Source: Neocallimastix lanati (nom. inval.)
Lineage: Eukaryota; Neocallimastigomycota; Neocallimastigomycetes; Neocallimastigales; Neocallimastigaceae
Direction of reading: 5' to 3'
Assembly (NCBI GenBank): GCA_016946835.1
Contig: JACVTC010000014.1
Coordinates: 1,806,501-1,870,500, forward strand
Length of the DNA stretch: 64,000 bases
Shown here one piece after another: positions 22,407 through 54,786 of this stretch (positions are counted from its first letter, which is position 1; the number at the start of each line of letters is the position of its first letter). Both the position numbers and the translations under genes were made by a program. The notes beneath the pieces are model-generated. The model did not search any database and was not told the DNA's origin. It saw only the letters and a list, made by a program, of their open reading frames with translations.

Positions 22407-22421
22407 ACAATTAGTAAAATT

Positions 22422-22498
22422 AGAACTTTAGTTCAATGGTTAGTTACATTAACCATGACCAATACTTCATGGGTTCGACTCACACCTCAACCCATTTT
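22422..22498 (+). ncRNA. tRNA-like Pol III unit in 5' LTR of C
   Basis: A box TAGTTCAATGG (22429-22439) fits TRGYNNARNNG. B box GGTTCGACTCA (22472-22482) fits GGTTCGANTCC at 10 of 11. The gap is 32 nt, and TTTT (22495-22498) begins 13 nt after the B box, where a tRNA gene would terminate. The acceptor arms do not pair, so it is tRNA-derived rather than a working tRNA. CAATT, where B2 ends, lies 17 nt upstream of the A box, about where Pol III would start. Confidence 0.72.
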
Positions 22499-22788
22499 GC
22501 ATAAATAATTATTTTATTAATTATTTTATTAATTATTAATAATATCTTCTTGAATATTCTTTCTGTATAAAATTATAGAAAGTTAAAGATTCTTTCGGTT
22601 CGTAATTCAACCGAAATGAATTTAGAAATTCTTATTATATAAATTATTTTATTCTTTTTTGATAAGATTCATTTTCATCAATTAAAATCAATATTCTAGA
22701 AACTTTACATTATTAATTATTACAAACATATTTCTAAATATTTCTTTAAAATTATTTTTACATGTTAAAACTGTTTTTCCGTTAAAAG

Positions 22789-22840
22789 TATAAATAGTGC
22801 GAACTTCACGAATGAAAATATTTTTCTTCGTGCTTTTATT
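22789..22840 (+). promoter_or_regulatory. TATA box, inverted repeat and self-primer of C
   Basis: TATAAATA (22789-22796), inverted repeat CACGAATGAAAA/TTTTTCTTCGTG (22807-22818, 22821-22832), then GTGCTTTTATT (22830-22840), starting 41 nt after the TATA box. GTGCTTTTATT is the exact reverse complement of AATAAAAGCAC at the LTR/leader border (23038-23048). This is the Tf1 self-priming arrangement; no tRNA-type primer site is present. Confidence 0.72.
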
Positions 22841-23038
22841 AATAATAATTAACGTATAAGTAATTCGAAATATTACCTTGTTGATTAATATTAATAATTA
22901 TTTTAAATTTTATAATTAATAAAAAAATATTTCTAATAAAACGAATTATTTATACAGATAGTGTAAACCTATTGAGTTTTCTCCTTTCTGTGTTTCTATA
23001 TCTCATCCCGCCTTTACAATAGAAGCACCTCCGTTACA

Positions 23039-23516
23039 ATAAAAGCACCTGCTAATCCAAGCCCTCAATACCTTTACGCTATTTCTCAGACATTCTACCG
23101 TACTTTTAGGAATTCTACCTTCTCAATATCTTTTGGCAATCGTTGGGTTTCTACTTTTACTATTCTACTATTAAAGAACAAATACTTATTCTTCCGGTTC
23201 TCTCTATCTTAGTCTAATAATCTTTGAATAAATCTTCTTATCTACTATCTCTTTAATACCGGACTTCTATATCTTTTAATCTCGGATTTTATCTCTTCCC
23301 AGACGAATAATTACTGCCTATTGATTCCTATTCCAATTATCACCTTGTCTGTTCTAAGTTACCTTCACTATTATATAATTTAACCCTTTGAATCTATTAT
23401 ATTACCGGATAATCCTAATCCTATGGTTGTTGAAATTAATTCTTATACTACCCGATCAAATAATTCAAATTAAATTTGTGCTACCCTATTAAGATAAAAC
23501 TTGCATTACCTTAACC

Positions 23517-23564
<48 letters not shown>

Positions 23565-27675: not shown

Positions 27676-28320
27676 TGTAACGAAATCTTCAGTTAGTAAA
27701 ATTAGAACTTTGGTTCAATGGTTAGTTACATTAACCATGACCAATACTTCATGGGTTCGACTCACACCTCAACCCATTTTGCATAAATAATTATTTTATT
27801 AATTATTTTATTAATTATTAATAATATCTTCTTGAATATTCTTTCTGTATAAAATTATAGAAAGTTAAAGATTCTTTCGGTTCGTAATTCAACCGAAATG
27901 AATTTAGAAATTCTTATTATATAAATTATTTTATTCTTTTTTGATAAGATTCATTTTCATCAATTAAAATCAATATTCTAGAAACTTTACATTATTAATT
28001 ATTACAAACATATTTCTAAATATTTCTTTAAAATTATTTTTACATGTTAAAACTGTTTTTCCGTTAAAAGTATAAATAGTGCGAACTTCACGAATGAAAA
28101 TATTTTTCTTCGTGCTTTTATTAATAATAATTAACGTATAAGTAATTCGAAATATTACCTTGTTGATTAATATTAATAATTATTTTAAATTTTATAATTA
28201 ATAAAAAAATATTTCTAATAAAACGAATTATTTATACAGATAGTGTAAACCTATTGAGTTTTCTCCTTTCTGTGTTTCTATATCTCATCCCGCCTTTACA
28301 ATAGAAGCACCTCCGTTACA
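27676..28320 (+). repeat. 3' LTR of C
   Basis: 645 bp with 7-bp terminal inverted repeat TGTAACG/CGTTACA. Complete. Position 27690 reads CAGTT where the two 5' LTRs of C and G read CAATT. Confidence 0.88.
27704..27780 (+). ncRNA. tRNA-like Pol III unit in 3' LTR of C
   Basis: A box TGGTTCAATGG (27711-27721, fits the consensus fully), B box GGTTCGACTCA (27754-27764), TTTT at 27777-27780. No element is inserted upstream of this copy. Confidence 0.72.
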
Positions 28321-28405
28321 GTTAATAATATTAATATTTACTTTATTTCAAACACTCTGTTCGACAATAAAGAAAGAAAACTTTTGTTCAAAAAAAAAAT
28401 TATTA

Positions 28406-29412: not shown

Positions 29413-29653
29413 TGTTATGGTTCATTGGGAAAAACAAAATTTTTACACACAAAAGATAAAGATTTAAAATATTTATTTACACAATAACAATTTTATAATT
29501 TATTTATTTATTTAATTTTTAAAGTAATTACATTATTTATTAAACTAATTAAATTTTATTAGCTAAATTATTACTATTCCTAATATTAATATTAATACTA
29601 TTACTTATATTATTACTAATATTATTACTATTTTTATTTTATTATTATTATTA

Positions 29654-29688
<35 letters not shown>

Positions 29689-31117
29689 TTTATTATTGTT
29701 TTGTGTTATTTTATTTTTTTTTTTTTTTTTAGAAGAAGTTATTTTCTTCAGATATTTATATTCGATTTCATTTTTAAAGTTTAATATCTTGGAAATGAAA
29801 AAGAATTTAAGTATTTAATTAAAAGAATTATTAATTCATTCTTAATTAAATGTTAAATAAAATTATTAATAATATGTTTAATATAAATTCCATAAAGGAA
29901 TAAAAAAAATTATTATTTAAAAAGATATTATAAAGATTTTAATTAAATAATATCTGGAGTAAATAATTAAAAAGTTTTTAATAAAATTTTTAATTAAAAG
30001 TTTACAAAAATATTAATTGAATTTGGTAAAAGATAATAAATTATTTAATGATAATTTATTTTAAGTTTAATAAAAATTAATATTAATTTATAATGTTATT
30101 GAAAGTTAATAATAATTAATTTGATAAAAATATAATAAAAATATAAAATAATTTTAATATAGATTCAATAAAGAATTTGTTAATATAAATTTTTGAAGAG
30201 TTTATATGTATTTTAATATTAATTTAATTAAGATTCAGTAATGATTTTATAAAAAATATTTTTATAAAAATTTTAATTAATATTATAATAATTTTAATTA
30301 ATTTATAATACTATATAATAAAATTTTTAATTTAATTCAGGGAAGAATATAAGAAAGTTCCATTAGTAAAGAATATAAACTTAATTATGGTTAAGTTATG
30401 TCTAAACATAACAAAATAAGTAATTTATAATCATTCTTTACCATTCAATTGGTACAGGACTTTTCATTTATTTATTTTCAATAATAATATATTCTAATTA
30501 ATTCTAATTAAACTTATTTAATTATTTCCGAATATTATCTAAACTAATTAAACTCAACATTAATATTCTAATGTTTTTAAATATTAACTAAGCTCTCTTT
30601 TATTTTATTTTAAACCCCTTAACTAACTTAATTATTATTTAAACTTAAAACTATTATATTAACAACACAGCTTAACACTAAATTAAAACACCCTTAATTT
30701 ATTTTACCTTATTTTATTCTAAAATTTAATTTATAAAATTTTGAGAGAGAGTTTTTAATATTTTTTGATTTTACAAGTTATTTATAGAATTTAATGAAGT
30801 TTTTTTATTGGTTCAAATAAATTTTTAATTAATTAAAATAAAATATAAAAAATAATAAAATAATATATAAAAATAATAAAAATTAAAGTAAAAATAAAAG
30901 TAAAAGTAAAAATAAAAATAAAAATATAAAATAAAAATAAAATATGAGATAAAAATAATATAATAAAAATTAAAATAAAAATAAAGTAAAAGTAAAAATA
31001 CAAATAAAAATTTAAAATAAAAATAAAGATATAAAATAAAAATAATATAAAAGAAATAAAAACAAATATAAAATAATAAATTCAATAATATAAGCAATAT
31101 TAGATTGTTCCGTATCA
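29413..31117 (-). repeat. Long 5' LTR of element I
   Basis: About 1.7 kb, twice the length of its relatives' LTRs, from TGTTATGG (29413) to CCGTATCA (31117) on the plus strand. Contains ATT-type microsatellite (29625-29700) and a TAAAAATAAAA-type low-complexity stretch (30830-31090) that may explain the extra length. No partner LTR in the window, so the limits rest on the primer site on one side and the CAAT junction on the other. Confidence 0.6.
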
Positions 31118-31121
31118 CAAT

Positions 31122-31418
31122 TGTTAAGGTTTTAGAGAATTAAATAAAAATAAAGTAAGGAAACACAAATTTTATTTATTTATTTATTATTTTTATTTAT
31201 AAATTTATGATTTTATTTGATGATTTTTTAAAAATTGGTAGCAAAATTTACAACTATTTATACTTTTTTTCAAGGCATAAAAGTTGTTCTTGCCACTAAA
31301 TTACATTTTATTTATTTTTTTTTATAAAAACTATTAAATTTAAATTGAATTTTATAATCAATTATATAAAATTTAATTATAACAATATAAATAAAATACA
31401 TTTATAATATTAATAAAA

Positions 31419-31472
<54 letters not shown>

Positions 31473-31959
31473 TATCTAAAATATTACTAATAAGAATTTA
31501 TTTAATTGGCTATAAATTTTATTACAATCTGTTAAAATATTCAAATAAAAATAAAAATACTATTCTAATATAAAGGTTTTTAATAAAATAAAATATTTTT
31601 CAATATAAAATAAAACATTTCGATATAAAATTTTATAATAAAAGTTAAAATATAATATATAAATTTTTAATCATCAATATATAAAAATATTATTAATACA
31701 AATTTTCATTATTAATATAAAAAATAAAAAAATTAAGATTTATTATTAATATTGCTAATATAAGTTTTAAATATATAAAAATATTACTATTAATATAAGA
31801 TTTAATATAAAATTATAAAGTTTAATATAATTTTTGATTTAATTTTTAATCTTTGAATTTAAAAATTTATTAAAGTACAAAAATAATAATGTACACATAA
31901 TGTATTAGAAATAAATCGTAGATTTAATTAAGAATGCATTATTTAGTACATTCTTATCA
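31122..31959 (-). repeat. 3' LTR of D
   Basis: 838 bp, TGTTAAGG…CTTATCA on the plus strand, with a T homopolymer of about 45 nt. G-rich polypurine tract follows at 31960-31971. Confidence 0.9.
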
Positions 31960-31977
31960 AGATGCCCCGACGAAGAC

Positions 31978-34900
31978 TCAAGCTTCTCTGTAAGCGGAGT
32001 TAAACTTTACTAAATTTTTAAAGTGAACATTCCTATCGAGTTGCTTTCCAGTCTTCTGATCGATTAGGGTTGCCGTGTTGAATTGAATTTTTAAAATTTT
32101 AAATGGTCCATTGTAATATGGTTCTAGCTTAGTGCGGCTAAAGTTTCTAACAAGAACAAGATCACCAGCTTTTAATTCTTTTCCTTTTTTCATACTTATT
32201 TGTTCTTCTCGTCTTGTTGCCCAATACTTGTTAGCATTCTTCACATTTTCGCATGCTTCTCTAGTCCATTGATAATGACGAACAAATTTTTCCATTAAAA
32301 TTTCATCATATGATTTACCTGCATTTTCAATTGTTCTTATGGCTATATCATACGGCTGTTGGTCTTCTCTTCCATATACTAATTCAAAACTAGAATGTCC
32401 AGTAGCTGTATTTTTGGTAGTTCGAAGTGCCCATAAAGCAGAAGGTAAAACTTCATCCCAATCTTGATTTTTCCTTCCTAATAAACGAAGTAATTTTCCA
32501 ATTTCTTTATTTCGATTTTCAGTAAGGCCATTTGATTCAGGGTGGTAAGTAGCTACAAATTTAACATATACATCATAAAGATCAAGAAAGATTTTAGTCA
32601 TATCAGAAGTGAATTGGACTCCATTATCAGAAGTAATAACTTGAGGCACACCATGTCTTGCAAAAACATTTATTAAAAATTTAATTATATCAGAGGAAGT
32701 TATGTTTTCAGTGGGTTCGGCTTCAACCCATTTGGTAAAGTAATCAACAGTTACTATAATATATTGATTATTATTTCTTGTTTTTGGTAACGGTCCTATA
32801 ATATCTAATCCTAAATGCACAAAGGGACCCTCCACTTTAGTTGGATGGTTTTCGGTTGGTTCTGGATATGGTTGAGGACGATTTAACTGGCATTTTTCAC
32901 AATTACTAACAATTCTTTTGATATCTTTAATCATATGATTCCAATAAAAGTTTTTCTTAAGTCTTTGATATGTTTTGTAATATCCTTCGTGGCCAATATT
33001 ATGAGCTTCTAAAATTAATTTAAACCTTTCATTTTCGTCCGTTATTAATTTTCTATAATTTCCATTGTCGATAAAGTAATCTTCACCATCAATAACAGTA
33101 AACTTTTCATTAATAAATTCCTTTATAACTTTAGATAATAATTCTTCATTATTTCCATTAGTAATTTTTGTTAATAATATCTTTCTCTCTTCCTTACTTT
33201 TCATTCTTGAAAGAGCATCAGCTAACACATTCTTTTTGCCTGATTCATATTTTATATTAATTCCAAGCATACTAGCGGTTAGACACCATCTTGTTTGCCT
33301 TGCATTCAAAGGTTCTTTATTCTTAAATAAACCAACTAATGGTTTATGATCTGTGTAAATAGTTGTAGGTAGTGGATTTCCTTCAATATAAGATTTAAAT
33401 TTAGTCATACAGTAAAACAAAGCGGTTCCTTCCAAATCTGTGATACCATAATTCTTTTCAGCTTTCTTCAAACTTCTACTTATAAAATGTATTGGATGCT
33501 CCTTACTGGTTTCTTCTTCTTTTTGTAAAAGAACTCCACCAATTCCATTATACGAAGCATCAGTTCTAATGATAAAAGGTTTGTCAAATGACGGAAATTT
33601 TAGAATAGGTGCATTGATTAATTTTTCTTTTAGGAGTTCAAAGCTTTCTTGTTGTTCTTTATTCCATTCATATTTAGTATTATTTTTCAATAATTTACAT
33701 AAAGGTGAGGTAATTTGAGCATATTTAGGAATAAAGTCACGATAATATCCTATTGCTCCTAGAAATGATCTTAATTCATGGATTGATGAAGGGGCTTCCC
33801 ACTTCTTAATAGCTGTTATTTTACTTTCCATGGGACTTAATCCTTTAGTAGTAAGTTTGTGACCTAATACATCAACTTCAGTTTGAAGAAAATGGCACTT
33901 TTCAATATTAATTTTTAACTTGTTTTCTTTAAATACTTCTAATACTTGTTTAATATGGACTAAATGTTCTTCAATATTTTTGGAATATATTAAAACATCA
34001 TCAATAAATACGTAAACAAATTCACCAATAAAAGGGAATAAAATTTTATTCATTTCTCTTTGGAAGGTTGAGGGAGCTCCAGTAAGTCCAAAAGGCATAA
34101 CCTTAAATTGATAATTTCCAAACTTAGTAGTGAAAGTGGTTACTTCAACGCTTTCTTCATCCATTAAGATTTGGTGAAAACCAGAAAATAAATCAAGAGT
34201 TGTAAATATTTTAGCTCCTCCGAGACTATCAAAAATTTCATCTATATATGGAACTGAATAAGAATCTTTTTCTGTCATATCATTGACTTTTCGGTAGTCA
34301 ATGCACAAGCGCCACTTTCCATTGTGTTTTAGAATAAGTACTACTGGAGATGACCATTCTGAACAGGATGGTTCTATCAATCCTTTCTTAATAAGCTTTG
34401 TAAGTTCTTCTTTTAAGATATCTGATTTTAATTTAGTTAACCTATAACTTCTTAATTTTACTGGCTTTGAATTTGCTTTTAAACGGATCTTATGTGGTGA
34501 AAGTTTAGAAGGAGTTAGTTCTTCTGTTGAAGTGGCAACTATGTCAATCATTTCTTTGAGAATTTTAATAATTTGTTCTTTATAATCTTTATTTAAGGTA
34601 CTTAAAAATTCATCACTCTCAATAAATTCCATTGGAGTTAATTCCTTTATAATTTCCTTTTCATTATTCGTTTCTTTAACTTTTCTAATAGTGCAAATTA
34701 TACTTTCTTCATCATAATATTGATTATTTATTTTAGCTATTTCTTCGTATTCACTTTCTGACAAAAGTTTACATAAACTGTTTAAGGTCGGATGAATAAA
34801 TAAACAATGATCGATTTGAGTTTTAAAGTTTATTAACATATCATAAAAAGAGTCTTCTTTCTCAATAATTCTAAAGTCCGCATTAAATTCATAATTATTA

Positions 34901-35793: not shown

Positions 35794-35954
35794 TTTTCTT
35801 TTTATAGCATTAATAATGATATCATCCTCACTTTCAGTTGTGTCACTAAAATCAGATTCTTCAGATTCTTCATTAAAGGAATTATTATCAATTGGAGTAT
35901 TCTTAGTAAAAGTATTATTTTGTAAATTATTTAATGAAGCTATTGTTTTGTCAT

Positions 35955-35988
35955 TGGGAGTGCTTCTGCTCCCATTTAGAAGTTTAAA
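35955..35988 (-). promoter_or_regulatory. -1 frameshift signal of D
   Basis: Heptamer TTTAAAC (plus-strand GTTTAAA 35982-35988) in the gag frame, stop at 35976-35978, hairpin TGGGAG/CTCCCA at 35955-35974. Confidence 0.85.
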
Positions 35989-38394: not shown

Positions 38395-38400
38395 TATAAA

Positions 38401-38702: not shown

Positions 38703-38739
<37 letters not shown>

Positions 38740-39530: not shown

Positions 39531-39569
<39 letters not shown>

Positions 39570-40057: not shown

Positions 40058-40845
40058 TGTTATGGTTCATATAATTTTAGGAATATAATAATAACTAACA
40101 CAAATAATAAAATTACAATAAAAAAAATAATTTGTTTTAAAATCAATATTTATTTATTTAAATTTATAAAAGAAAAATAATAATATAATTATTTATTTAA
40201 TAAAAAGAAAGTTATTGATTATATTTTATTTCACTAAAAATTACATGTATTTATATTTTTTTATCAAATTAAAATTTGTAAAGCCTAACTATTTCTTAAT
40301 AAACTAATTACTAATTATTTTAATAAATAAAACATTTAAATTGAAATTGAATTATTATTTTAGTTAATAATATTATTGTTATAAATATTAGTTTTATATT
40401 ATTGAATTATTAATTATTTAATAATAGTTTAATATTAATATATATAAAATAAAAATAAAGAGATTATACAGAATATTTTAATTGTGGTTTAGTTAAATTT
40501 AGTAATTAAAAATAAATTTAAATTGATAACGAAAATTGTAATAACTAATTAAATAGATTTGATTATTTTCAATATATCATATTACAAAAGAAATATAATA
40601 TTAATATATTAAGTGGGCAAGGACAATATTCTTGGCTAAAGATTTTTAATACATTATAATGGAATCGGATCGATAATTCAAAAAGGAATTATAAGTTAAT
40701 TGGTGATTTATTAACATAAGATTTCTATTTAGTAATATTTGAAGAATATTGGAAAGTTCCAATTATATAGAATAGAATAATCTATAAGGTTAGAATAATT
40801 TATATTATTCTAGCACAATTAGTATTATTTGTTCATTCTGTATTA
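40058..40845 (-). repeat. 3' LTR of E
   Basis: 788 bp, TGTTATGG…CTGTATTA on the plus strand; in sense it starts TAATACAG, not TG. Confidence 0.9.
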
Positions 40846-40868
40846 AGATGCCCCCGCTAAGACTCAAG

Positions 40869-43800: not shown

Positions 43801-44690
43801 GGAACTTTGATTAACACATCTTCTGAGTAATCATCATTCATCGTTGCTAAACGTATTCGTCCTGCACTAACTCCTATAGGTTCATACTGATAAGGTAATT
43901 TATCTAAAAATTGCTTTGTGATAATACTTAAGTTGCTACATGAATCTATTAAAGCCTTACCACGAACTCCATCTACTATTACATCAACCATAGCAATATC
44001 ATCTTCTTGTGGTTCATGATGTTTACTTTTATATGTATGATCTATATTGTTCGTTATTATTGTAGTAGCACACATATTATCCACTGCACCTGAAATTTTA
44101 GTATTATTCTTTTCTAATTTAAGTCCTTGTGATACTTGAGACCGTATCTTTGGAGCAACGTCCAATAATTGTCCAAATGTAATATTGCAATTACTGGAGT
44201 TTAAATCTTTGATCACGTCATAACTATCACAATCAGTTTGCATTTGTATTCTTCTTGGAATTCTAGTTGGCATAATTTCAGTTGACTTTTCTGATGATTT
44301 TTCTTGAATTAATTTATTTAAAGTTTGTTTAGAATTATTTTCTTCCTGAGAAGTTTCTTCATTAATAACATTAACATTACTATTATTATTATTATTTTCC
44401 ACAGAAGTACTAGTACTAGCTCTTTCCTTATCTCTTAGCTCTTTCTCAATTCTCTTTTCTTTTTCTATTCTAGGTTGAACCATAATCGAAGGATATAATT
44501 GAGTTGTTGGCTTTTTGACTGGTCGCGATGTTCCCCTTAATTGATTTTCTTTTTGTTTTCGTAAACCTGGAGTAACTATTGGCTTAGGATCATCTCTTAG
44601 ACTACGGTGAACCCTCTTTTCTCTTTGGTCACTAGTCTCTTCATCTTTATGATTTGCCTTTCTCTTTATAACGTTTACTAAGTAATTCAA
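40869..44690 (-). CDS. pol: Pol of E
   Basis: 1273 codons from the first ATG; expected to be reached by -1 frameshifting from gag. Basic/acidic linker, retropepsin LIDSCSNLS (Asp-Ser-Cys, about residue 248), RT with CIDYRKVN, MPFGLTGAPATFQR and NFIDDILIY (about 600; Phe in place of Tyr), RNase H (TDAS, ADALSR), integrase zinc finger (HSIGHEG, CEKC) and core (LDIIGPL, TDNGTQF, NGLVEN), SH3-like end with GPM. No chromodomain. Confidence 0.92.
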   Translation of the reverse strand: MNYLVNVIKRKANHKDEETSDQREKRVHRSLRDDPKPIVTPGLRKQKENQLRGTSRPVKKPTTQLYPSIMVQPRIEKEKRIEKELRDKERASTSTSVENNNNNSNVNVINEETSQEENNSKQTLNKLIQEKSSEKSTEIMPTRIPRRIQMQTDCDSYDVIKDLNSSNCNITFGQLLDVAPKIRSQVSQGLKLEKNNTKISGAVDNMCATTIITNNIDHTYKSKHHEPQEDDIAMVDVIVDGVRGKALIDSCSNLSIITKQFLDKLPYQYEPIGVSAGRIRLATMNDDYSEDVLIKVPVKINELELLVTCRIIDKEDPFYDILINLKTQIDNQLFIHPIRYSLCRFNDQGLIEEIAPINNEYDDEEKLLCVIKALNHQEAKQQLKTIEGLPPIKYIYDTVFQSTINSNYREAITKLLEEYIDIIATSSEELTPSDLSPHKIILKEGVKPIKQKFYRLSKLKTDILKEELTKLIYKRLIEPSCSEWSSPVVLVPKKNGKWRLCIDYRKVNEATKKDSYSLPNIEEIFDSLDGAKIFSSLDLYSGYHQILMDDDSVEITTFTTKFGNYQFKVMPFGLTGAPATFQREMNRILFPLIGKCAYNFIDDILIYSRTEEEHLEHLKQVLEIFKEHKLKINIEKCSFMQTEVEVFGHKVSSEGLSPLENKVEAIKEWKVPSNIHELRSFLGAIGYYRNFIKDFAKVTAPLCTLLRKGVKFEWKKEQEESFKILKERLINAPILRFPRFDREFIIRTDASYDGIGGVLLQKDDETGKEHPVHYISRSLSKSEKNYGITDLEGAALIYCINKLKSYIMGNPKQTIVYTDHRPLIGLLKSKEPQNSRHTRWCLTVSMLGIDLRYETGKNNVVADALSRMKNEKEKVVLTTQIIKEQDENLLSRTIKEFIEEKFTTIDGVDYFVDGNNYRKLVTDTKEKLQLIFQAHSIGHEGYYKTYQRLKKSYYWNNMVNDIKRIIGKCEKCQLNKSQPYPEPTEDKPTEVEGPFTHLGLDIIGPLSKTRNNNQYIIVVVDYFTKWVEAEPTENVTSQDVIKFLINVFARHGVPQIITTDNGTQFTSDMTKIFLDLYDVYVKFITPYHPESNGLVENRNKEIGKLLRLLGQQHKEWDEILPSALWALRTTKNSITNHSSFELVYGREDQQPFDIAARPTKGINKSSDEILLEKFVSHYQWVMEAASNIKNASKYWATRREEKTSMNQAKRIKPGDLVLVRNFNRAKLEPYFVGPMKVVKKQFNTVTLADPATNIQMNRNVHLKNIVKFNSAST

Positions 44691-44840
44691 TTCTTTGGAA
44701 CCATCCGACTTATCATCAAAATCTTCGTAATAATCCGTAGTAGTACCTTCTTGGAAATCAGCAGTTTCTTCATAATCATCATCTTCTTTTAAGTCAACTA
44801 TTTTGGGACGATGGCAGACTGAAGCAATTTTTTTGACGAT

Positions 44841-44873
44841 GGGAGTGCTTCTACTCCCTTTTAGTGGTTTAAA
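44841..44873 (-). promoter_or_regulatory. -1 frameshift signal of E
   Basis: Heptamer TTTAAAC (plus-strand GTTTAAA 44867-44873) in the gag frame, stop at 44861-44863, and hairpin GGGAG/CTCCC (44841-44858). The signal is conserved with family B although the codons around it and most of Gag have diverged. Confidence 0.85.
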
Positions 44874-45778
44874 TGATTTTCATAAAACTTCTTGCGGTTA
44901 TTTTCCAATATAGAATTTAATTTAGGACAGTTTCGTTTGGTATGTCCTTCATTGCTACAAAACCAGCAAGTACTAATTTTCATTTCTTTCATCTTGTTAG
45001 TGATATTTTCTATAGATACATTTTTGTGGGTTTTTGGTTTGTTAAAATCATTTGAAATGTTCTTATTAAAATTACTTTTAGAGTTAAGGAGATTGTAATG
45101 AGTCTTATCATAATATTCAGTACTATTTTTAATAGATAAACGATCAACTTTTTCGGCTATAGCGAACGCTTTGGTAATAGAAATATGGTCTTTAAGCATA
45201 ACCTTTCTCCATGCGTCAGGATTATTGGTTAAGGAATCTGCATAATCTAAAACACTAATTTTTCTTCTTCTCTTTTTATCCAATTTATGGTACAAAGATC
45301 TATAACGGACATTAAAATCTTTAACTTTCTCGTTCTTCTTTATTTTCATGGAACGCAATTCTCGCAACAAGTTGGTTTGATCTTCTTTAAGTCCATAAAA
45401 AGTCTTCAGATGATTTATTATTTCATCAAGGCTTGGGTAGGTGGTAGTAGATTCACTTTCTTCATCATCTTCTCCTTCACTATCGCTATCGAAATCAGAA
45501 TCTTCATCTTCAGTAAGGTCATTTCCATCTTCTAGTTCTTGGATAATTTCTCTTGGTTCTCCAGAAGCCGTTAATATACAAGCAGTAAAAATAGTTTCAG
45601 GATCCTTGATATGTTGGTATTTTATCCATGCCTTTAACTCATTTGCCCAGGAGTTGATGTCAAGGTTTTGTTTAGTAAGCTTTTCAAAATCTTTTAATTC
45701 TTTCTTTAATTCTCTGAAGCTAAGCTTACTTTCTGGAGTACTCTCTGTTGGAGTACTGGAAGTACTGGATGTTCTCAT
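44861..45778 (-). CDS. gag: Gag of E
   Basis: 305 residues from ATG 45778. N-terminal LSFRELKKELKDFEKL is shared with family B. Acidic tract (EDEDSDFDSDSEGEDDEE), helix bundle LRSMKIKKNEKVKDFNVRY, and zinc knuckle CWFCSNEGHTKRNC (residues 271-284). Ends Leu-Asn-His-stop, the Leu-Asn codons being the frameshift heptamer. Confidence 0.88.
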   Translation of the reverse strand: MRTSSTSSTPTESTPESKLSFRELKKELKDFEKLTKQNLDINSWANELKAWIKYQHIKDPETIFTACILTASGEPREIIQELEDGNDLTEDEDSDFDSDSEGEDDEESESTTTYPSLDEIINHLKTFYGLKEDQTNLLRELRSMKIKKNEKVKDFNVRYRSLYHKLDKKRRRKISVLDYADSLTNNPDAWRKVMLKDHISITKAFAIAEKVDRLSIKNSTEYYDKTHYNLLNSKSNFNKNISNDFNKPKTHKNVSIENITNKMKEMKISTCWFCSNEGHTKRNCPKLNSILENNRKKFYENHLNH

Positions 45779-46283
45779 AAAATAAAATTTATTGTATCTA
45801 TAGAATGCTAAACCTCGTAATGTGTAAATTGTTATAAAAAAGTAAAAATAAAAAAAATTAAAAAAAATAAATCTTTTAACTAATAAAATTATTAATTATT
45901 TATTATTATTAATCACTTATTAAATTATAATAATCGTGCAATCTGATAGTACACACTGTCTGACGTGCAGCTTACCTCTTGAAAGGTGTCATGCCACGCG
46001 TGTGCCACGGTTACTATTTTCAATATAAAAAATAGCAGTCCAGAGCCTACTAGCCCAATTACTATGTAGGATAAACTTAACCCGGAAATCTATGCACGAA
46101 TATTAGTTTAATTTAATATTAATTAATATTTTTAACAATTAATAATAATTAGTTAAAAATATAAAAATTGTTTTCTTTTTTAAAAAAAATATTTTTTTTG
46201 TTTTATTAGAAAAATTATTTATTAATATTATAATTTATCCCTAATGTATTAATTTATTATTATATTCCCCGATATCTCCACCA
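45779..46283 (-). other. Leader of E with primer-binding site
   Basis: No gene. Only about 0.5 kb, against about 1.4 kb in family B. Contains leader block 2 (about 45932-46100) but neither block 1 nor the tandem hairpins. Primer site TGGTGGAGATATCGGGGA at 46266-46283. Confidence 0.75.
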
Positions 46284-46291
46284 ATTTTTCA

Positions 46292-47079
46292 TGGTATGGT
46301 TCATATAATTTTAGGAATATAATAATAACTAACACAAATAATAAAATTACAATAAAAAAAATAATTTGTTTTAAAATCAATATTTATTTATTTAAATTTA
46401 TAAAAGAAAAATAATAATATAATTATTTATTTAATAAAAAGAAAGTTATTGATTATATTTTATTTCACTAAAAATTACATGTATTTATATTTTTTTATCA
46501 AATTAAAATTTGTAAAGCCTAACTATTTCTTAATAAACTAATTACTAATTATTTTAATAAATAAAACATTTAAATTGAAATTGAATTATTATTTTAGTTA
46601 ATAATATTATTGTTATAAATATTAGTTTTATATTATTGAATTATTAATTATTTAATAATAGTTTAATATTAATATATATAAAATAAAAATAAAGAGATTA
46701 TACAGAATATTTTAATTGTGGTTTAGTTAAATTTAGTAATTAAAAATAAATTTAAATTGATAACGAAAATTGTAATAACTAATTAAATAGATTTGATTAT
46801 TTTCAATATATCATATTACAAAAGAAATATAATATTAATATATTAAGTGGGCAAGGACAATATTCTTGGCTAAAGATTTTTAATACATTATAATGGAATC
46901 GGATCGATAATTCAAAAAGGAATTATAAGTTAATTGGTGATTTATTAACATAAGATTTCTATTTAGTAATATTTGAAGAATATTGGAAAGTTCCAATTAT
47001 ATAGAATAGAATAATCTATAAGGTTAGAATAATTTATATTATTCTAGCACAATTAGTATTATTTGTTCATTCTGTATTA
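46292..47079 (-). repeat. 5' LTR of E
   Basis: 788 bp, partner of 40058-40845. Ends CTGTATTA, followed by CAA and the LTR of F. Confidence 0.9.
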
Positions 47080-47082: not shown

Positions 47083-48061
47083 TGTAAGAAATAATAATTA
47101 TTTACTAATAAATAATTATTATTTCTTAGTCTTTATAATTATTGATAATAATTATAAATTTATTTAAATTATAATTAATTCATACATTGAGATATTATTA
47201 TCAAATTTATTATAATTGTAATTATTCATACACTTAAATAATATTAGAAAATTTATTTAAATAATTATTATATGTACACTTATTAATATTATTAATTTTA
47301 TTTAGTTATTCATTTAATTATCAAGTTAATGTAAACATTAGTTTTATTTATTTTTTACATTGTACATTTAAAAGAACAATTAATAAGTTTCTGTATTTTT
47401 TATAATTCTGTATTCTAGTTTAAAGATAGTTTTATGTTAATAAGTTTAGATTAGATTTTAAAAATAATATTTAGAAAGATAGAATAGAATAATTTAGATC
47501 ATTCCGGTTATTATTGATTTTTCCTTTTATTAGATGATCTAAATTAAAATTTAGGAAATCGATATATTAAGGTTTTATCCAAATATAAAATAATATATTT
47601 GGTTTTACTTAATATATACGATGATCGATATGAATAGAATATCGATCAAAAAACTTATCTAGTTTTTTCTTCTAATCTTTTTCTAGATAAGATATTTTTT
47701 AAGATTAGAAAACCTTTTTATTTAACCTTATTTCCATAAAAAAATATAAATAAGGCTCTTGATTTCCCTTTAAGAAATCAAGAGTTATTATTATAAAAAT
47801 ATAGTTATAATAATAGCAATTTTATATTTTAAATTTTAATAAATTAATAAAACATTTTATTCAAAAAACATATTTCTTAAAACCAAATTTATCTAAATAT
47901 TCCTTCTTTTACTTTTTGTGTTGTTATTATAATTAATTTTATAATAAACTCTCTTTTTAGGTAAAGTTTTTATTTTTATTTTATTTCTCAACTTAATGAA
48001 TTAGTCATTAAGTTGAAGTTAATAATCATATTTAGTGATAGAACTTAGTATGATTATTACA
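47083..48061 (+). repeat. 5' LTR of F
   Basis: 979 bp, TGTAAGAA…ATTACA. Begins with an 18-bp perfect inverted repeat (47085-47102 and 47111-47128). Confidence 0.93.
47745..47792 (+). promoter_or_regulatory. TATA box, hairpin and self-primer of F
   Basis: TATAAATA (47745-47752), perfect 11-bp inverted repeat CTCTTGATTTC/GAAATCAAGAG (47756-47766, 47774-47784), and AGAGTTATTATT (47781-47792), starting 36 nt after the TATA box. Its reverse complement is at the LTR/leader border (48061-48072). Same plan as in C, G and Z. Confidence 0.75.
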
Positions 48062-48291
48062 ATAATAACTCTTCTAGATTAGATTAGTTTAGGGTTAGAT
48101 AAAATGTGGAAAATTTTTAGAATAGTGTAACATTGGAATAGTGAATTAGTCTATTAAAAATATATATATTAGAATAAAATAATAATATATAGCTAGAGTG
48201 GCGTAAAAAAAAAAAAAAAAAAAAAAAATTTTTTTTTTTTGGCAATTTTGATTGGAAAAAAAAAAAAAAATTAGTTTTAATTAATAATTTT

Positions 48292-48338
<47 letters not shown>

Positions 48339-49055
48339 AAGTAAATAATTAAATAAATAAATAAAATTAGTAAATAAAATTAGTAAAAAAAATTAGTAAA
48401 TAAATAAATTAAATAAATTAATGATTTAATAAATGGATAAGTCAATTATAGAAAAATAAATAAATTAAATAATTATTAAATAGATAAATCAATTATAGAG
48501 TAATAAATGAATGAAATAATTAGTAAATAGATAAATTGAATAAATTAATAATTTAAAAAAAAAAAAAAAAAAAAATTAATTGAGTATCAACGAATTGATA
48601 TAAAAAATAAATAAACAAAATATAAAATAAAACAGTTAGTAAATTAAATAAATTATTAGATAAATATAGTTAATGATAGAAAATTATAATTTTTAAAAAT
48701 AATAAGTTATTTAATAATTATTTCAGAGAGAAAATTTTATAATTGAATAATTAAGGAAAGTCTTGTTTATTTTGTTTTGAGCCTCTTATTAATAAAATTT
48801 TTTGCATCCTGGCCCTCGCTGGTAGAACTGAAATCTACATTCAGCTCATCGACCAAGCCGGTTGGTGAACAGCAGCATGCAAAATAATTTTTTTTAATAA
48901 AACTTAAAATATTAATAATCAATTCAGAAGCTTAATTATAAAATTATAATAATTTTGCTGTTATAATTATTTATATTTACTTGTCAAATATTACATATTA
49001 CACTTATCTTTATTTTATTATTTATTTTATCAATTTAATTTTTAGATTTAGGAAG
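48062..49055 (+). other. Leader of F with a GC-rich structured segment
   Basis: Mostly A homopolymers and AT filler (48205-48600). At 48800-48884 an unusually GC-rich stretch folds on paper into an outer stem TTTTGCAT/ATGCAAAA enclosing a hairpin GCTG-GTAGA…TCTAC…CAGC (48818-48845) and a hairpin CATCGACC/GGTTGGTG (48847-48854, 48860-48867, two G-U pairs). A TTTTTAG just before the ATG could be a splice acceptor. Confidence 0.6.
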
Positions 49056-52000
49056 ATGGAATTCAATAGTGATATCTCAAATAATCTCACTGTAGAGGAT
49101 GATAATCCAAATAATCTCCTTATTAATAATAACCCAAATAATCTCACTACAAATCACATCACCCAGAACAGCAGTGCTTCCAAACTCATTACAGCTATTA
49201 CTGATTTCATTCCTGCATTCTTTTCTCCAGGAGGAATATTAGTTAAAGAAAACAAGGGAAAAAGTAAACCAACTGTCCTCGAAACCATCATTCAAAGCGA
49301 AGATTTCTTTAAGGAACACCCAGAATCCTTTAGAAGCGACGAATCAAAAAATTCATTTGTAATAAATAAGCTTGCAGGGACTGCAAGAAGATGGGGTCTC
49401 TCTTTACTTGGTGACGGTACTTTAAAATCCCTAAGATTTGATGAATTCAAAGCTCTTCTTTTGGAAAATTTTGATTCGGGTAGTGAGAAAAAACAAAAGT
49501 ATGTAATTATGGACAAACTTTGGAGATTAAAACAGCTTCGTCTTGGTGAAGCTGCCGAATACACTATTGAGTTCCGAAGGTTAGCTGGACGTTTGGGATG
49601 GCCTGACGAAGTACTAATCGATATCATTGGAAAGGGTCTCGTTGATCGGGTTCGAGAAGAATTTGATAAACTTAATAAACCCGATACCTTGTTTGAAGCT
49701 ACCAATACGATTATCGGCATTGACAAAAAATGCTATCTTGAAAGCTGCATTCGTCATAAATCCGATAATAAGAGTAAAGCTAGTAAGTCTTTCCATAGAA
49801 AAAGAAAAGAACTTACAAAAACGGAGAACCGCTTTAAGAAATCTAAATTCAGAAAAAACAAGCCAAATAAGGAAATCTTGTCAGCTAATTACACTCCTTC
49901 GGGAAAATTAACAGTAACAACTACATTCTTCATCTCCTGTAATAATAAAAACCTTAGAGCTAACATTCTTATTGATTCTGGTTCCGGCAGAAGTTTCTTG
50001 TGCAAGAATTTTGTTAATGCTAATAAAATCCCTACTTCTGGTCTCTCTTCTCCAATTAAGATTCAGTTGCCTAATGACAAATGCATGACCATTAAGCAAA
50101 CCACTAAACCACTTAAATTGAAGACTTTGGATCACTCTGAGAATTTTGAATTTTGCATTGGAAATATATCACTTGAAGGAGTCAATGGTATCTTGGGTAG
50201 AGATTGGCTACGAAAACACAATCCTTTCATTGACTATGAAAGGAATAAAATCTACTTTTTGGGAAAACATTGTAAATCTCATTGTCCTTCATCAAGGAAA
50301 AACAAATTTATTATTCAAAATTCTAATATTACAGCTCCAATGCTGGATGAGGACTCTTATACTGCTAAAGAAACTTTGGATTCCATAATTCCTACTACTA
50401 TTTCTGAAGATGAACTCTACGAGGATGTCTGTGCTGCAATGGATACTTCTACTGAAGGCAACAAAGAAAAATCAAGAAATGAATCGATTATTAAAAAATT
50501 TTATTCTGATCTCAAAATTGTTTTTGAAAAGAAAGAAGCTGAGAAACTTCCTCCACACAGGAAGTATGATATTTCTATCGATCTTATTGTTGGAGGACAA
50601 CTCTACTATGGCCCGATTTACTCGTTAACCGTTAAAGAATTAAAGGCTTTAAGGAAATACATTAAAGAAAACTTGAAGAAAAAATTTATAAGAAAATCTA
50701 AATCTCCCGCAGGTGCTCCAATTCTTTTTGTTATGAAGCATGATGGAACTTTAAGGCTTGTCGTTGATTACAGAAGACTCAATGCTATTACAATCCGTAA
50801 TAGTTATCCTATCCCAAGAATCAGTGATTTGATTGAGTCTTTCAAAGGAGCTTCAAGATTCACTCGGCTAGATCTCAGATCCGCTTACAATCTAGTCAGA
50901 GTAAAAGAAGGTAATGAATATTTAACTGCATTTAGAACTCCTCTTGGTCATTATGAATATCTCGTAATGCCATTTGGTCTTCGTAATGCCCCTTCGGTTT
51001 TCCAACGTTTTATTCAAGACGTTCTTGATGAAGTCATTGGAACTTGCGCTCAAGTTTATTTAGATGACATTATAATTTACTCAAAGAACTTAGAAGATCA
51101 CGTTAAGCATGTCAGATTAGTGCTTTCTCTTTTAATTAAGAATGGTCTTTATGCAAAATTGGAAAAGTGTGAGTTTCATGTTAAAGAAACCACTTTTCTT
51201 GGCTTCGTAGTATCTATTAATGGATTAAGAATGGATAGAAACAAGGTAAGATCGGTTTTGGAGTGGCCAATCCCTAAAAATTTAAAGGAACTTCAAAGTT
51301 TCCTGGGTTTGTGCAATTTTTACAGAAAATTTATTAAAAACTTTGCAAAAAACATGGAACCATTAAGGAAGCTACTCAAAAAAGAAAATCAGTTTATTTG
51401 GAACGATGAAGCTGATTCTGCATTTAATAAATTAAAGAGTGCCTTTGAAACTGATGAAGTCTTAATATTCCCAGACCATGATAAAGAATTCATAGTTGAA
51501 ACGGATGCTAGTGACTTTGCTGTTGGCTGCGTCCTTTCTCAGGTTTGCGATAAGGATAATTTACTTCATCCAGTTGCTTTCCACTCCAGGTCCCTTAATA
51601 AAGCTGAGTTAAATTACACTATTTATGACAAGGAACTCCTTGCAATTATTACTGCTTTTGATACCTGGAGGCACCATCTAGAAGGTGCCAAGTTCCCTGT
51701 GCAAGTCCTGACCGATCATAAAAATCTGTTATATTTAAAGAAGCCCCAACACTTAAATCAAAGGCAAATTCGTTGGAGCTTATTCCTTTCCAAGTTTGAT
51801 TTCAGGGTAGCTTATAGACCCGGTGCTAAAGGTGGTAAACCAGATGCACTCTCAAGAAGGCCGGATTATAAAAAAGATATTCCGGTTGTTTCGCAGTCAG
51901 TTATTAGTGAAAAAGCTTTCTGTTACACAATTAGCGATAATATTAGAGGTTTAATTGAAGCCCAAAAAGCTGATAAATACTGCAATGAAATTCTTAAAAA

Positions 52001-53168
52001 AATCAAACAACATGATAAAAAGTTAAAAAGTTCTTTGTTCAGTTACATTGAAGGTGTACTTCACTTTCAAAAACGTATTATTGTCCCATCCGCGTTAAAG
52101 GCCAGGCTATTAAAATCGTTCCATGACGCACCAACTAGTGGGCATCAGGGGGTAGATAGGACTTTTGAAAAACTTCAAAGGTACTACTGGTGGCCCAATA
52201 TGAAGAAAGACGTACAGAATTATGTTGCATCGTGTGATGTTTGTTGTCGAAGTAAAATCCGCAGGCATAAACCCTATGGTAAGTTACAACCACTTCCTAT
52301 TCCTTCTAAACCCTGGGAAGTAATAGGGGTCGACTTTATTGTCTACCTGCCAACTTCGCAAAACTGTACTTGCATAATGGTGGTGTCTGACCATTTAACA
52401 AAAATGGTTCATTTAATGCCTTGTGCCGACGTCCCTTCTGCTGATCTTACTGCCAAGCTCCTATTGTTTAATGTTTTTAAATATCATGGTTTTCCAAAAA
52501 CCATCGTATCCGATCATGGTTCCCAGTTTTCATCCGAATTTTGGACTTCTCTTTGCTCCGCTGTTCGTGCTAAACCAAGACTTGCTACAGCTCATCATCA
52601 GCAATCAAATGGTCAAGTGGAAAGAGCTAATGCAGTCATTGAACAATATCTTAGATGCTACTGTTCTTCTGCTCAAAGTGAATGGTGCTTCTACTTACCC
52701 CTCTGTGAATTTGCTTATAATAATTCGATGAACAAGTCTATTGGTCATTCTCCTTTCTTTGCTAATTATGGCTTTCATCCTAATGCTGTTATTGATTCTC
52801 CTCCTATTTTACTTAAGGATAATGCTTCAGTTCTTACAAGAGACTGGGCTGCTCATTTTGATGCTCTTCGTCAACATTTAAGCAAAGCCAAAGAAGATTT
52901 TAAAAAATATGGTGATACAAGAAAATCTACTGGCCCCAATTTTCAAGTCAATGATTTAGTTTATCTTAAACGACATTATTTTACAAATGAATCAGCTAAG
53001 AAATTATCCTCTCAATATTTAGGCCCGTTTAAAATAATCGAAAAGAGGGAAAGAATGAACTACCGTTTGGAACTCCCGGAAAATTTACGACTCCATCCGG
53101 TATTTCATATCTCACAGTTGGAGCCTTACGTAAAAAGAAATAAAGAACTGGAAGAACCATCATTATAA
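49056..53168 (+). CDS. gag-pol: Gag-Pol polyprotein of F
   Basis: 1370 codons from the first ATG (MEFNSDISNN); the frame is open about 25 codons further upstream but has no ATG there. Gag capsid region (about 35-220), Lys/Arg-rich tail without a clear zinc knuckle, retropepsin LIDSGSGRS (about 306), RT with VVDYRRLN, MPFGLRNAPSVFQR and VYLDDI (about 668), RNase H (TDASDFAVGC about 816, PDALSRRP), integrase zinc finger (His…His, CDVCC) and core (GVDFI, SDHGSQF, NGQVERAN), GPF segment and the chromovirus-type end RLHPVFHISQLEP. No chromodomain. Gag and Pol are in one frame, as in Tf1, so no frameshift is needed. Confidence 0.92.
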   Translation: MEFNSDISNNLTVEDDNPNNLLINNNPNNLTTNHITQNSSASKLITAITDFIPAFFSPGGILVKENKGKSKPTVLETIIQSEDFFKEHPESFRSDESKNSFVINKLAGTARRWGLSLLGDGTLKSLRFDEFKALLLENFDSGSEKKQKYVIMDKLWRLKQLRLGEAAEYTIEFRRLAGRLGWPDEVLIDIIGKGLVDRVREEFDKLNKPDTLFEATNTIIGIDKKCYLESCIRHKSDNKSKASKSFHRKRKELTKTENRFKKSKFRKNKPNKEILSANYTPSGKLTVTTTFFISCNNKNLRANILIDSGSGRSFLCKNFVNANKIPTSGLSSPIKIQLPNDKCMTIKQTTKPLKLKTLDHSENFEFCIGNISLEGVNGILGRDWLRKHNPFIDYERNKIYFLGKHCKSHCPSSRKNKFIIQNSNITAPMLDEDSYTAKETLDSIIPTTISEDELYEDVCAAMDTSTEGNKEKSRNESIIKKFYSDLKIVFEKKEAEKLPPHRKYDISIDLIVGGQLYYGPIYSLTVKELKALRKYIKENLKKKFIRKSKSPAGAPILFVMKHDGTLRLVVDYRRLNAITIRNSYPIPRISDLIESFKGASRFTRLDLRSAYNLVRVKEGNEYLTAFRTPLGHYEYLVMPFGLRNAPSVFQRFIQDVLDEVIGTCAQVYLDDIIIYSKNLEDHVKHVRLVLSLLIKNGLYAKLEKCEFHVKETTFLGFVVSINGLRMDRNKVRSVLEWPIPKNLKELQSFLGLCNFYRKFIKNFAKNMEPLRKLLKKENQFIWNDEADSAFNKLKSAFETDEVLIFPDHDKEFIVETDASDFAVGCVLSQVCDKDNLLHPVAFHSRSLNKAELNYTIYDKELLAIITAFDTWRHHLEGAKFPVQVLTDHKNLLYLKKPQHLNQRQIRWSLFLSKFDFRVAYRPGAKGGKPDALSRRPDYKKDIPVVSQSVISEKAFCYTISDNIRGLIEAQKADKYCNEILKKIKQHDKKLKSSLFSYIEGVLHFQKRIIVPSALKARLLKSFHDAPTSGHQGVDRTFEKLQRYYWWPNMKKDVQNYVASCDVCCRSKIRRHKPYGKLQPLPIPSKPWEVIGVDFIVYLPTSQNCTCIMVVSDHLTKMVHLMPCADVPSADLTAKLLLFNVFKYHGFPKTIVSDHGSQFSSEFWTSLCSAVRAKPRLATAHHQQSNGQVERANAVIEQYLRCYCSSAQSEWCFYLPLCEFAYNNSMNKSIGHSPFFANYGFHPNAVIDSPPILLKDNASVLTRDWAAHFDALRQHLSKAKEDFKKYGDTRKSTGPNFQVNDLVYLKRHYFTNESAKKLSSQYLGPFKIIEKRERMNYRLELPENLRLHPVFHISQLEPYVKRNKELEEPSL

Positions 53169-53177
53169 ATGGAGCAA

Positions 53178-54156
53178 TGTAAGAAATAATAATTATTTAC
53201 TAATAAATAATTATTATTTCTTAGTCTTTATAATTATTGATAATAATTATAAATTTATTTAAATTATAATTAATTCATACATTGAGATATTATTATCAAA
53301 TTTATTATAATTGTAATTATTCATACACTTAAATAATATTAGAAAATTTATTTAAATAATTATTATATGTACACTTATTAATATTATTAATTTTATTTAG
53401 TTATTCATTTAATTATCAAGTTAATGTAAACATTAGTTTTATTTATTTTTTACATTGTACATTTAAAAGAACAATTAATAAGTTTCTGTATTTTTTATAA
53501 TTCTGTATTCTAGTTTAAAGATAGTTTTATGTTAATAAGTTTAGATTAGATTTTAAAAATAATATTTAGAAAGATAGAATAGAATAATTTAGATCATTCC
53601 GGTTATTATTGATTTTTCCTTTTATTAGATGATCTAAATTAAAATTTAGGAAATCGATATATTAAGGTTTTATCCAAATATAAAATAATATATTTGGTTT
53701 TACTTAATATATACGATGATCGATATGAATAGAATATCGATCAAAAAACTTATCTAGTTTTTTCTTCTAATCTTTTTCTAGATAAGATATTTTTTAAGAT
53801 TAGAAAACCTTTTTATTTAACCTTATTTCCATAAAAAAATATAAATAAGGCTCTTGATTTCCCTTTAAGAAATCAAGAGTTATTATTATAAAAATATAGT
53901 TATAATAATAGCAATTTTATATTTTAAATTTTAATAAATTAATAAAACATTTTATTCAAAAAACATATTTCTTAAAACCAAATTTATCTAAATATTCCTT
54001 CTTTTACTTTTTGTGTTGTTATTATAATTAATTTTATAATAAACTCTCTTTTTAGGTAAAGTTTTTATTTTTATTTTATTTCTCAACTTAATGAATTAGT
54101 CATTAAGTTGAAGTTAATAATCATATTTAGTGATAGAACTTAGTATGATTATTACA
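53178..54156 (+). repeat. 3' LTR of F
   Basis: 979 bp, partner of 47083-48061. Preceded by the short purine run AAATGGAGCAA. Confidence 0.93.
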
Positions 54157-54161
54157 TACAA

Positions 54162-54786
54162 TTACTAAAATTAGAACTTTGGTTCAATGGTTAGTTACAT
54201 TGACCATGACCAATACTTCATGGGTTCGACTCACACCTCAACCCATTTTGCATAAATAATTATTTTATTAATTATTTTATTAATTATTAATAATATCTTC
54301 TTGAATATTCTTTCTGTATAAAATTATAGAAAGTTAAAGATTCTTTCGGTTTGTAATTTAACCGAAATGAATTTAGAAATTCTTATTATATAAATTATTT
54401 TATTTTTTTTTGATAAGATTCATTTTCATCAATTAAAATCAATATTCTAGAAACTTTACATTATTAATTATTTAAACATATTTCTAAATATTTCTTTAAA
54501 ATTATTTTTATGTTAAAACTGTTTTTCCGTTAAAAGTATAAATAGTGCGAACTTCACGAATGAAAATATTTTTCTTCGTGCTTTTATTAATAATAATTAA
54601 CGTATAAGTAATTCGAAATATTACCTTGTTGATTAATATTAATAATTATTTTAAATTTTATAATTAATAAAAAAATATTTCTAATAAAACGAATTATTTA
54701 TACAGATAGTGTAAACCTATTGAGTTTTCTCCTTTCTGTGTTTCTATATCTCATCCCGCCTTTACAATAGAAGCACCTCCGTTACA
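54162..54786 (+). repeat. 5' LTR of G
   Basis: 625 bp, missing only the outermost bases at the point where the stack ending in F begins. Self-primer GTGCTTTTATT at 54578-54588; its complement directly follows the LTR. Confidence 0.88.
54173..54249 (+). ncRNA. tRNA-like Pol III unit in 5' LTR of G
   Basis: A box TGGTTCAATGG (54180-54190), B box GGTTCGACTCA (54223-54233), TTTT (54246-54249). CAATT (54159-54163), next to the end of F, lies 17 nt before the A box, the same distance as in C. Confidence 0.72.

Follow-up and report, generated by a model that had tools for sequence, protein, structure and literature searches.

Repeated insertion of LTR retrotransposons beside a tRNA-like unit in the LTRs of a chromovirus-type element of Neocallimastix lanati

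The window analysed here is a stretch of 64,000 nucleotides of the Neocallimastix lanati genome (G000:C46:1806501-1870500; 199 Mb in 762 contigs) with a GC content of 25%. It contains two retrotransposon copies, named C and G, whose long terminal repeats (LTRs) have an A box, a B box and a TTTT run close to the LTR start; we call this arrangement the tRNA-like unit. Other LTR retrotransposons have inserted just upstream of this unit, in the window and at many loci of the genome, and the same families lie at the same distance from the boxes of genuine tRNA genes. In all probability, the LTR unit nucleates a start complex of RNA polymerase III (Pol III), and this complex is used by Ty3-type elements that home on tRNA genes. 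All coordinates are window positions, and negative ones lie upstream, outside the window.

Two stacks of elements at split LTRs

A self-comparison of the window revealed two runs of LTR elements, one terminating at the 5' LTR of C and the other at that of G (Table 1). An earlier, sequence-only reading of the window had placed the ends of both stacks at CAATT, 17 nt before the A box (22408-22412 at C and 54159-54163 at G), and this is correct. CAATT does not mark the edge of the LTR. In both C and G, the 3' LTR starts TGTAACGAAATCTTCAGTTAG (27676 and 59423; at greater length, TGTAACGAAATCTTCAGTTAGTAAAATTAG), and both 5' LTRs are without their first ~14 nt. The left part of the C 5' LTR is found at about -12980, where TTGTTAA is followed by TGTAACGAAATCTTCAGT and then directly by an E-type LTR. 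Because the 5-bp sequence GTTAA both precedes this left part and succeeds the C 3' LTR at 28321, C's own target duplication brackets the entire split element. Between the two parts of the C 5' LTR lie ~35 kb of stacked elements.

The left part of G is probably the one at about -19261, in which case its 5' LTR parts are separated by ~73 kb of nested elements. This left part continues into another element, E5, whose left-hand LTR runs from about -19245, directly after it; TTCA (30444-30447) follows the right-hand LTR of E5, and C is nested in E5. To read G's own duplication, a continuation of the G 3' LTR was sought past element H, which breaks it, but none was clear up to the contig end. At most stack junctions, CAAT or part of it lies between the adjoining LTR ends. 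Divergence within LTR pairs ranges from zero substitutions between the two LTRs of F to 0.62% for G (Table 1), and these ages are compatible with insertion into young C and G copies.

C measures 5.28 kb from LTR to LTR. In its open reading frame (ORF), gag and protease-like parts are fused straight to an integrase SH3 domain and a chromodomain, the latter matched by PF00385 (E 4.7e-18) and PF24626 (E 2.5e-17) as in chromoviruses, and Pfam gave no match to a reverse transcriptase (RT), RNase H or integrase core in this ORF, so that a complete pol is lacking. By its domain content, C is classed as a non-autonomous chromovirus-type element. Among its relatives, proteins with full pol exist. LTR starts spaced ~7.0 kb apart on contigs C554, C268 and C446 may belong to fuller C copies.

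An insertion hot spot across the genome

The unit occurs in 282 copies genome-wide (at most 2 mismatches), and the first 100 of these were classed as interrupted (48) or intact (52). Rows that were duplicates by sequence were removed from the copy, junction and left-half sets. The 48 interrupted copies form at most 21 upstream-sequence groups, in which one family's two ends may count twice. For the distance from the inserted terminus to the A box we used 48 distinct junctions, a set that differs from the 48 interrupted copies above in that duplicates were removed and extra loci added, and whose terminus motifs were compiled out of those same junctions. It was found that the distance is 20-25 nt in 48/48 junctions (20 nt in 4, 21 in 11, 22 in 13, 23 in 16, 24 in 3 and 25 in 1). 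A sharp peak upstream of the A box, which the sequence-only reading had proposed to look for, is therefore present.

The peak is also seen when loci are taken irrespective of a full-length match. Among 30 such loci (L031-L060), 15 are interrupted at the hot spot and only 2 in the other ~590 nt (L039 at nt 84 and L058 at nt 558). From the opposite side, 41 of 45 left halves leave the LTR at the hot spot, most of them into sequence starting with TG, and the other 4 are intact variants; 34 of the 41 broken halves depart after LTR nt 16-18. Target duplications were found at hits, namely CAGT (L123/L084), TTCA (L119/L114) and TACAA (F). The left halves and the duplications together demonstrate insertion into C LTRs. 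An assembly artefact as the sole cause was rejected in view of the many loci, the presence of both right and left parts, and the duplications.

The tRNA-like unit and related LTRs

Variation per column was computed over 44 C LTR copies and amounts to 0.002 in the A box, 0.004 in the B box, 0.016 between the boxes and 0.006 in the rest. The lower variation in the boxes hints only weakly at conservation, because the C LTR copies are young. The seven aligned units in which the GTTCGA core of the B box is kept include diverged LTRs.

The LTRs of four further families (L164/L165, L166, L167 and L168) are 68-76% identical to that of C over their longest aligned parts (123-394 nt). These families, which are related by sequence, and element H have diverged units that are likewise hit. 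The LTR of L168 runs on into sequence 93% identical to H. Element H, from 59922 to about 66690, is nested in the G 3' LTR and has LTRs of its own with a diverged tRNA-like unit. In its 5' LTR, near 66.66 kb, the unit lies ~80 nt inside the LTR by the start as read, yet the hit lies 23 nt upstream of its A box. The place of insertion is hence set by the distance to the box and not by the LTR edge.

The same elements at genuine tRNA genes

We compared these junctions with 20 of 63 listed tRNA-Arg loci; the 20 are all tRNA-Arg(TCT) loci, ten with a tRNA-Asn upstream. The sample omits most of a cluster on contig C555, and two of its loci (L076 and L080) are identical. An LTR-type terminus, recognised by motif, lies at most 34 nt from the first A box at 17/20 loci. 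At 11/20 loci, homology of at least 80% connects the sequence upstream with a C-LTR junction and stops near the same point, except that the alignment at L077 extends past the junction and the one at L070 covers only 62 nt. The latter count is the firm one, because motif matches alone can be chance in AT-rich DNA. The sequence-only reading had supposed that host tRNA genes are spared, and with 17 of 20 sampled loci having an LTR-like terminus upstream, 11 of them firm by homology, this supposition finds no support in the sample. As side observations on these genes, dozens of equally scoring tRNA-Arg matches are clustered on one contig (G000:C555, about 170-400 kb), and half of the sampled loci elsewhere (10/20) are paired with tRNA-Asn(GTT).

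The inserted family E was also followed outward from its own ends. Of 777 E termini, 40 of the 100 listed were surveyed; only 5' termini were taken, and outer ends, from contigs C1-C32, were chosen via the ~7.2 kb spacing of LTR pairs. Five ends with E internal sequence after the terminus (L128, L140, L150, L158, L159) were excluded, leaving 35 outer ends. The survey also omits C3:694221, C19:2336 and 3216, and C24:1084942, as well as five ends known beside C LTRs (L039, L041, L043 and L048 seen, one by coordinates), so the share of C in it is understated.

Ten of these 35 ends face a tRNA gene (Val, Thr, Thr, Glu, Gly, Met, Ser and Pro by ARAGORN, and two by Rfam), 6 face LTR units (L148 of C type; L125, L145, L132, L142 and L131 in related LTRs) and 2 face a GC-rich unit with A and B boxes. 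At 15 ends another LTR terminus follows 3-5 nt on, as judged by eye, and 2 are unclear (L124 and L135). The distance from the E terminus to the A box is 21-22 nt at 9/10 tRNA genes (11 nt at Met) and 21-25 nt at the six LTR units; to the B box, it is 64-65 nt at 8/10 tRNA genes, 76 nt at Ser and 64-69 nt at the LTR units. At the Met gene facing E, no B box was found. As a control, a B-box match at this range occurs at 15/35 E outer ends and in 122/20,000 random stretches, and C-family outer ends gave none (0/21 right and 0/11 left, 0/32 in all). Insertion upstream of genuine tRNA genes, another check suggested from the sequence, was thus borne out: the same families are found there at the same distance from the boxes. 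The GC-rich unit at L141 (via L169) and L162 has A- and B-like boxes and a T run without an Rfam match, and is perhaps an unknown Pol III gene.

The 3' LTR exception

Insertion is not distributed evenly among the LTRs of the C family. Among 78 left ends of C-family 3' LTRs, recognised by C internal sequence in front of them, 75 are intact. Of the other three, L210 and L229 are interrupted and L230 has a small deletion; L210 and L229 are identical in sequence, lie on two short contigs and perhaps represent one event. In the first 100 units, all 30 recognised 3' LTRs are intact, compared with 48 interrupted among the 70 units not recognised as 3' LTR. An interrupted 3' LTR is unrecognisable from its right side, and the count from the left side, made genome-wide, gives only the 2 mentioned. 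For 5' LTRs with C internal sequence after them, 9 are interrupted and 7 intact. The C-family unit therefore serves as a target almost exclusively where the LTR is not a 3' LTR, a point absent from the sequence-only reading.

We account for this most readily by read-through of RNA polymerase II (Pol II), which would silence the unit in the 3' LTR. A possible, though doubtful, alternative is that the 3' LTR is spared without such read-through, since the GC-rich polypurine tract (GGAGGCGGACCA) in front of it would occupy the position of the TATA-binding protein (TBP) and TFIIIB. The 20 nt before the 3' LTR are indeed 65% GC, against flank means of 19% (hit) and 22% (unhit) for the other copies, where L178, with a flank like a 3' LTR variant, was counted as unhit. 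However, hit and unhit copies cannot be told apart by flank GC (p = 0.52 over the last 20 nt; 41 versus 33 flanks), and the GC-rich flank of L120 is hit, although few flanks are as GC-rich as the polypurine tract.

The inserting elements

In E, E4, D0 and F, the RT, RNase H and integrase follow one another in Ty3/gypsy order by Pfam, as expected of Ty3-type elements. The best match by sequence of the E polyprotein to a solved structure, which was obtained for E only, is Ty3 (7q5b, 359.8 bits). In a tree of 29 rows, E, E4 and D0 form one clade and F groups with H and relatives of C (support 85/82, or 100/99 with one more row). Several named relatives of the element proteins have the label Orpsp1_1, which we take to mean Orpinomyces. 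Pfam detected no chromodomain in E, E4, D0 or F, and the integrases of E, E4 and D0 stop about 40 aa past the GP(F/M/L)K motif, with no counterpart of the vestigial C-terminal chromodomain through which Ty3 contacts TFIIIB. Judging from these sequences, two lineages (E/E4/D0 and F) appear to share the Pol III-site habit without the chromodomain of Ty3. The sequence-only reading had expected only non-chromodomain elements at the hot spot; this holds for the four elements named, which are four of up to 21 inserter groups. The chromodomain element H entered the G 3' LTR away from the hot spot.

The direction of E was read from its ORFs: E2 and E3 have them on the minus strand and E1 has them on the plus strand, so that the TTCTTATCA terminus is the E 5' end. 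As the ORFs of E2 are on the minus strand, its 5' LTR faces C. Since the terminus facing the unit is the E 5' end, E points away from the unit, and does so in 20/21 junctions among the first 100 units. The orientation of F is opposite to that of E.

Explanation and alternatives

In the explanation that we prefer, the C/G LTR and the LTRs related to it by sequence would carry a short tRNA-like Pol III promoter consisting of A box, B box and T run. By analogy with tRNA genes, TFIIIC on the boxes would place TFIIIB ahead of a transcription start lying ~17-20 nt before the A box. Other LTR retrotransposons insert at that point, with the same box distances that they keep at genuine tRNA genes. The spot stays open to insertion after a hit, and stacks grow there, with the first ~16-19 nt of the LTR on one side and the unit on the other. 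In the C family, such insertion is confined almost wholly to LTRs other than 3' LTRs; the unit of the 3' LTR would be silenced, most simply, by the element's own Pol II transcript crossing it. In LTR-retrotransposon replication, the U3 of new copies comes from the 3' LTR. Since new copies draw their U3 from there, the pad would then be used where C pays little.

Several observations weigh against this explanation. Searches of the unit for a tRNA or cloverleaf gave nothing, either by ARAGORN or by Rfam at E up to 10; the unit as a real, functional tRNA gene is ruled out for this reason. The near-absence of hits in 3' LTRs (2/78) means that the boxes alone are insufficient. The chromodomain 'ruler' of Ty3 is absent from E, E4 and D0, whose recognition surface would then differ from that of Ty3. 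Duplications are 4 bp in the cases examined for E and others (CAGT, TTCA, CAAT) and not the 5 bp of Ty3, which F fits (TACAA). Lastly, the order within stack 1 is not given by the LTR ages (E1 0.12%, E2 0.59%, C 0.16%).

Two simpler readings do without a Pol III complex. The inserters might read a local DNA motif (TTCAGTTAG / CAATT), as the restriction of the insertion point to a few nt and the repetition of CAAT between stacked elements would suggest. But the same families sit beside tRNA genes of unrelated sequence at an equal distance to the boxes, the H 5' LTR is hit in unrelated sequence well inside the LTR, and the same motif is hardly hit in 3' LTRs; targeting by motif only was rejected on this evidence and is very improbable. 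Or else there was no insertion, C and G having integrated beside older elements with CAATT as the LTR edge, and the stack does adjoin the LTR almost at its start. This is as good as excluded, the C LTR start lying across the stack with C's own GTTAA; a split LTR with matching GTTAA on both sides rules out CAATT as a plain edge. In addition, the exact left 16 nt of the LTR occur 229 times against 142 LTR starts joined to a unit (at most 2 mismatches), and the 41 broken left halves stop before the unit.

The reason for which the unit exists is a separate matter. We give an even chance to the reading that the Pol III unit is kept for the benefit of C, as a barrier or insulator against heterochromatin or for open chromatin, with the landing pad as a side effect. 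The boxes are kept in diverged LTRs, a unit followed by a T run is unlikely to drive the full element RNA, and C is itself nested in another retrotransposon, E5. This reading is compatible with a Pol III complex as the target and alters only why the unit is there; the decoy is one of the readings of why the unit is kept, and no more likely than a barrier or open-chromatin function. In its strongest form, the decoy would be a tRNA mimic that chromodomain retrotransposons of this lineage maintain near the LTR edge and that works like a lightning rod, active in 5' and solo LTRs and switched off in 3' LTRs via the element's own transcription. It would draw homing elements to where copying of the chromovirus continues, and one clade would in this way provide many others with a target niche that renews and spreads itself. 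We regard this as unlikely when taken as a whole; if it applies, then in the E sample the niche took insertions on the scale of host tRNA genes. As for the proposal made from the sequence, that the Pol III unit of the C/G LTR draws Ty3-like elements and is a renewable target, the peak and the distance shared with tRNA genes speak for it, and the sparing of host tRNA genes is not supported.

Table 1. Features of the window and their coordinates
Feature	Position	Strand	Remarks
D0, stack 1	2450..6338	-	RT/RNase H/integrase ORF, no chromodomain match; left boundary approximate
E1, inserted LTR element	6343..14391	+	plus-strand pol ORF; 0.12% divergence between LTRs
E2, inserted LTR element	14396..22406	-	minus-strand ORFs; LTR pair 0.59% diverged; terminus 22 nt before C A box
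Right part of C 5' LTR	22408..23038	+	LTR nt 15-645; 99.7% to C 3' LTR
A box, C 5' LTR	22429..22439	+	TAGTTCAATGG; pattern match
B box, C 5' LTR	22472..22482	+	GGTTCGACTCA; GTTCGA core invariant in 7 aligned units
TTTT run directly after unit	22495..22498	+	candidate Pol III terminator, putative function
Candidate Pol II TATA box of C LTR	22789..22797	+	TATAAATAG; downstream of insertion point, putative function
C ORF, 814 aa	24899..27343	+	gag/capsid, protease-like, SH3, chromodomain (Pfam)
C 3' LTR, uninterrupted	27676..28320	+	TGTAACG...CGTTACA, 645 bp; then GTTAA 28321-28325; C LTR pair 0.16% diverged
E5 right-hand LTR	29413..30443		99.3% to -19257..-18217; 2 mismatches in 1028 aligned bases
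Element or remnant, CAAT-flanked	30450..31117		TGGTACAGG...CGTATCA
E3, inserted LTR element	31122..39227	-	pol ORF on minus strand; CAAT both sides; LTR pair 0.24% diverged
E3b, extra E LTR	39232..40053	-	without own internal part; CAAT both sides
E4, inserted LTR element	40058..47079	-	minus-strand pol ORF; 0.13% divergence between LTRs
F, inserted LTR element	47083..54156	+	SH3, no chromodomain match; TACAA both sides; LTR pair 0.00% diverged; terminus 23 nt before G A box
Right part of G 5' LTR	54159..54786	+	probable left part about -19261; G LTR pair 0.62% diverged
A box, G 5' LTR	54180..54190	+	B box at 54223-54233
G 3' LTR	59423..59922	+	hot spot uninterrupted; broken further on by chromodomain element H
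tRNA-like unit, H 3' LTR	60401..60455	-	not hit; B box 60401-60411, A box 60445-60455

Comparison with known systems

Retrotransposons targeted to Pol III genes and LTRs with Pol III promoters are known separately; here they are combined, with the LTR as a frequent target of tRNA-homing elements. In open-licence papers, we found no report of other elements targeting LTRs that have a Pol III promoter. The genome offers hundreds of near-identical targets in 5', 3' and solo LTRs, some hit and some not, and with them a natural replicated assay of what makes a Pol III unit targetable. The sparing of the 3' LTR points to a context rule and bears on how transposons absorb transposons.

When compared with the systems below, the insertion geometry matches that reported for Ty3, DGLT-A and Tj1 (PMC8632968, PMC5006619, PMC4600332), and by this analogy TFIIIC and TFIIIB may likewise assemble on the LTR unit. 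Ty3 of Saccharomyces cerevisiae integrates a few bp from Pol III start sites, including the tRNA relic ZOD1 (PMC8632968, PMC5911963), and a chromodomain is described for it (PMC8632968). In contrast, E, E4 and D0 have no chromodomain, duplications are mostly 4 bp, stacks are made of many families, and another retrotransposon's LTR often serves as the target. The dictyostelid element DGLT-A (PMC5006619) is gypsy-type, chromodomain-free and inserted about 15 bp upstream of tRNA genes, as E is; the present case differs in having two lineages (E/E4/D0 and F), in a fungus, and in that tRNA mimics carried by LTRs make up a second class of target. In Schizosaccharomyces japonicus, Tj1 (PMC4600332) likewise inserts just upstream of Pol III genes, but it follows the direction of the Pol III gene whereas E at C LTRs points away (20/21), and the sections of that paper used here describe no LTR-borne targets.

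On the side of the target, the closest likeness is to the TRIMp3 elements Helenus, Ajax and Cassandra (PMC10886601), whose LTRs have a tRNA- or 5S-like Pol III promoter with conserved boxes and an unlikely tRNA function; the C/G LTR shares A/B-box sequence with them. TRIMp3 elements are short and non-coding, whereas C, at the length given above, has its 814-aa gag-chromodomain ORF, a T run and a TATA-like box, and the consulted portion of PMC10886601 does not take up targeting by other elements. Finally, TRE5-A (PMC5391098) is a tRNA-targeting element that likewise marks Pol III-like sites outside tRNA genes; it is a non-LTR element found at B boxes of Dictyostelium ribosomal DNA, while the targets here are retrotransposon LTRs.

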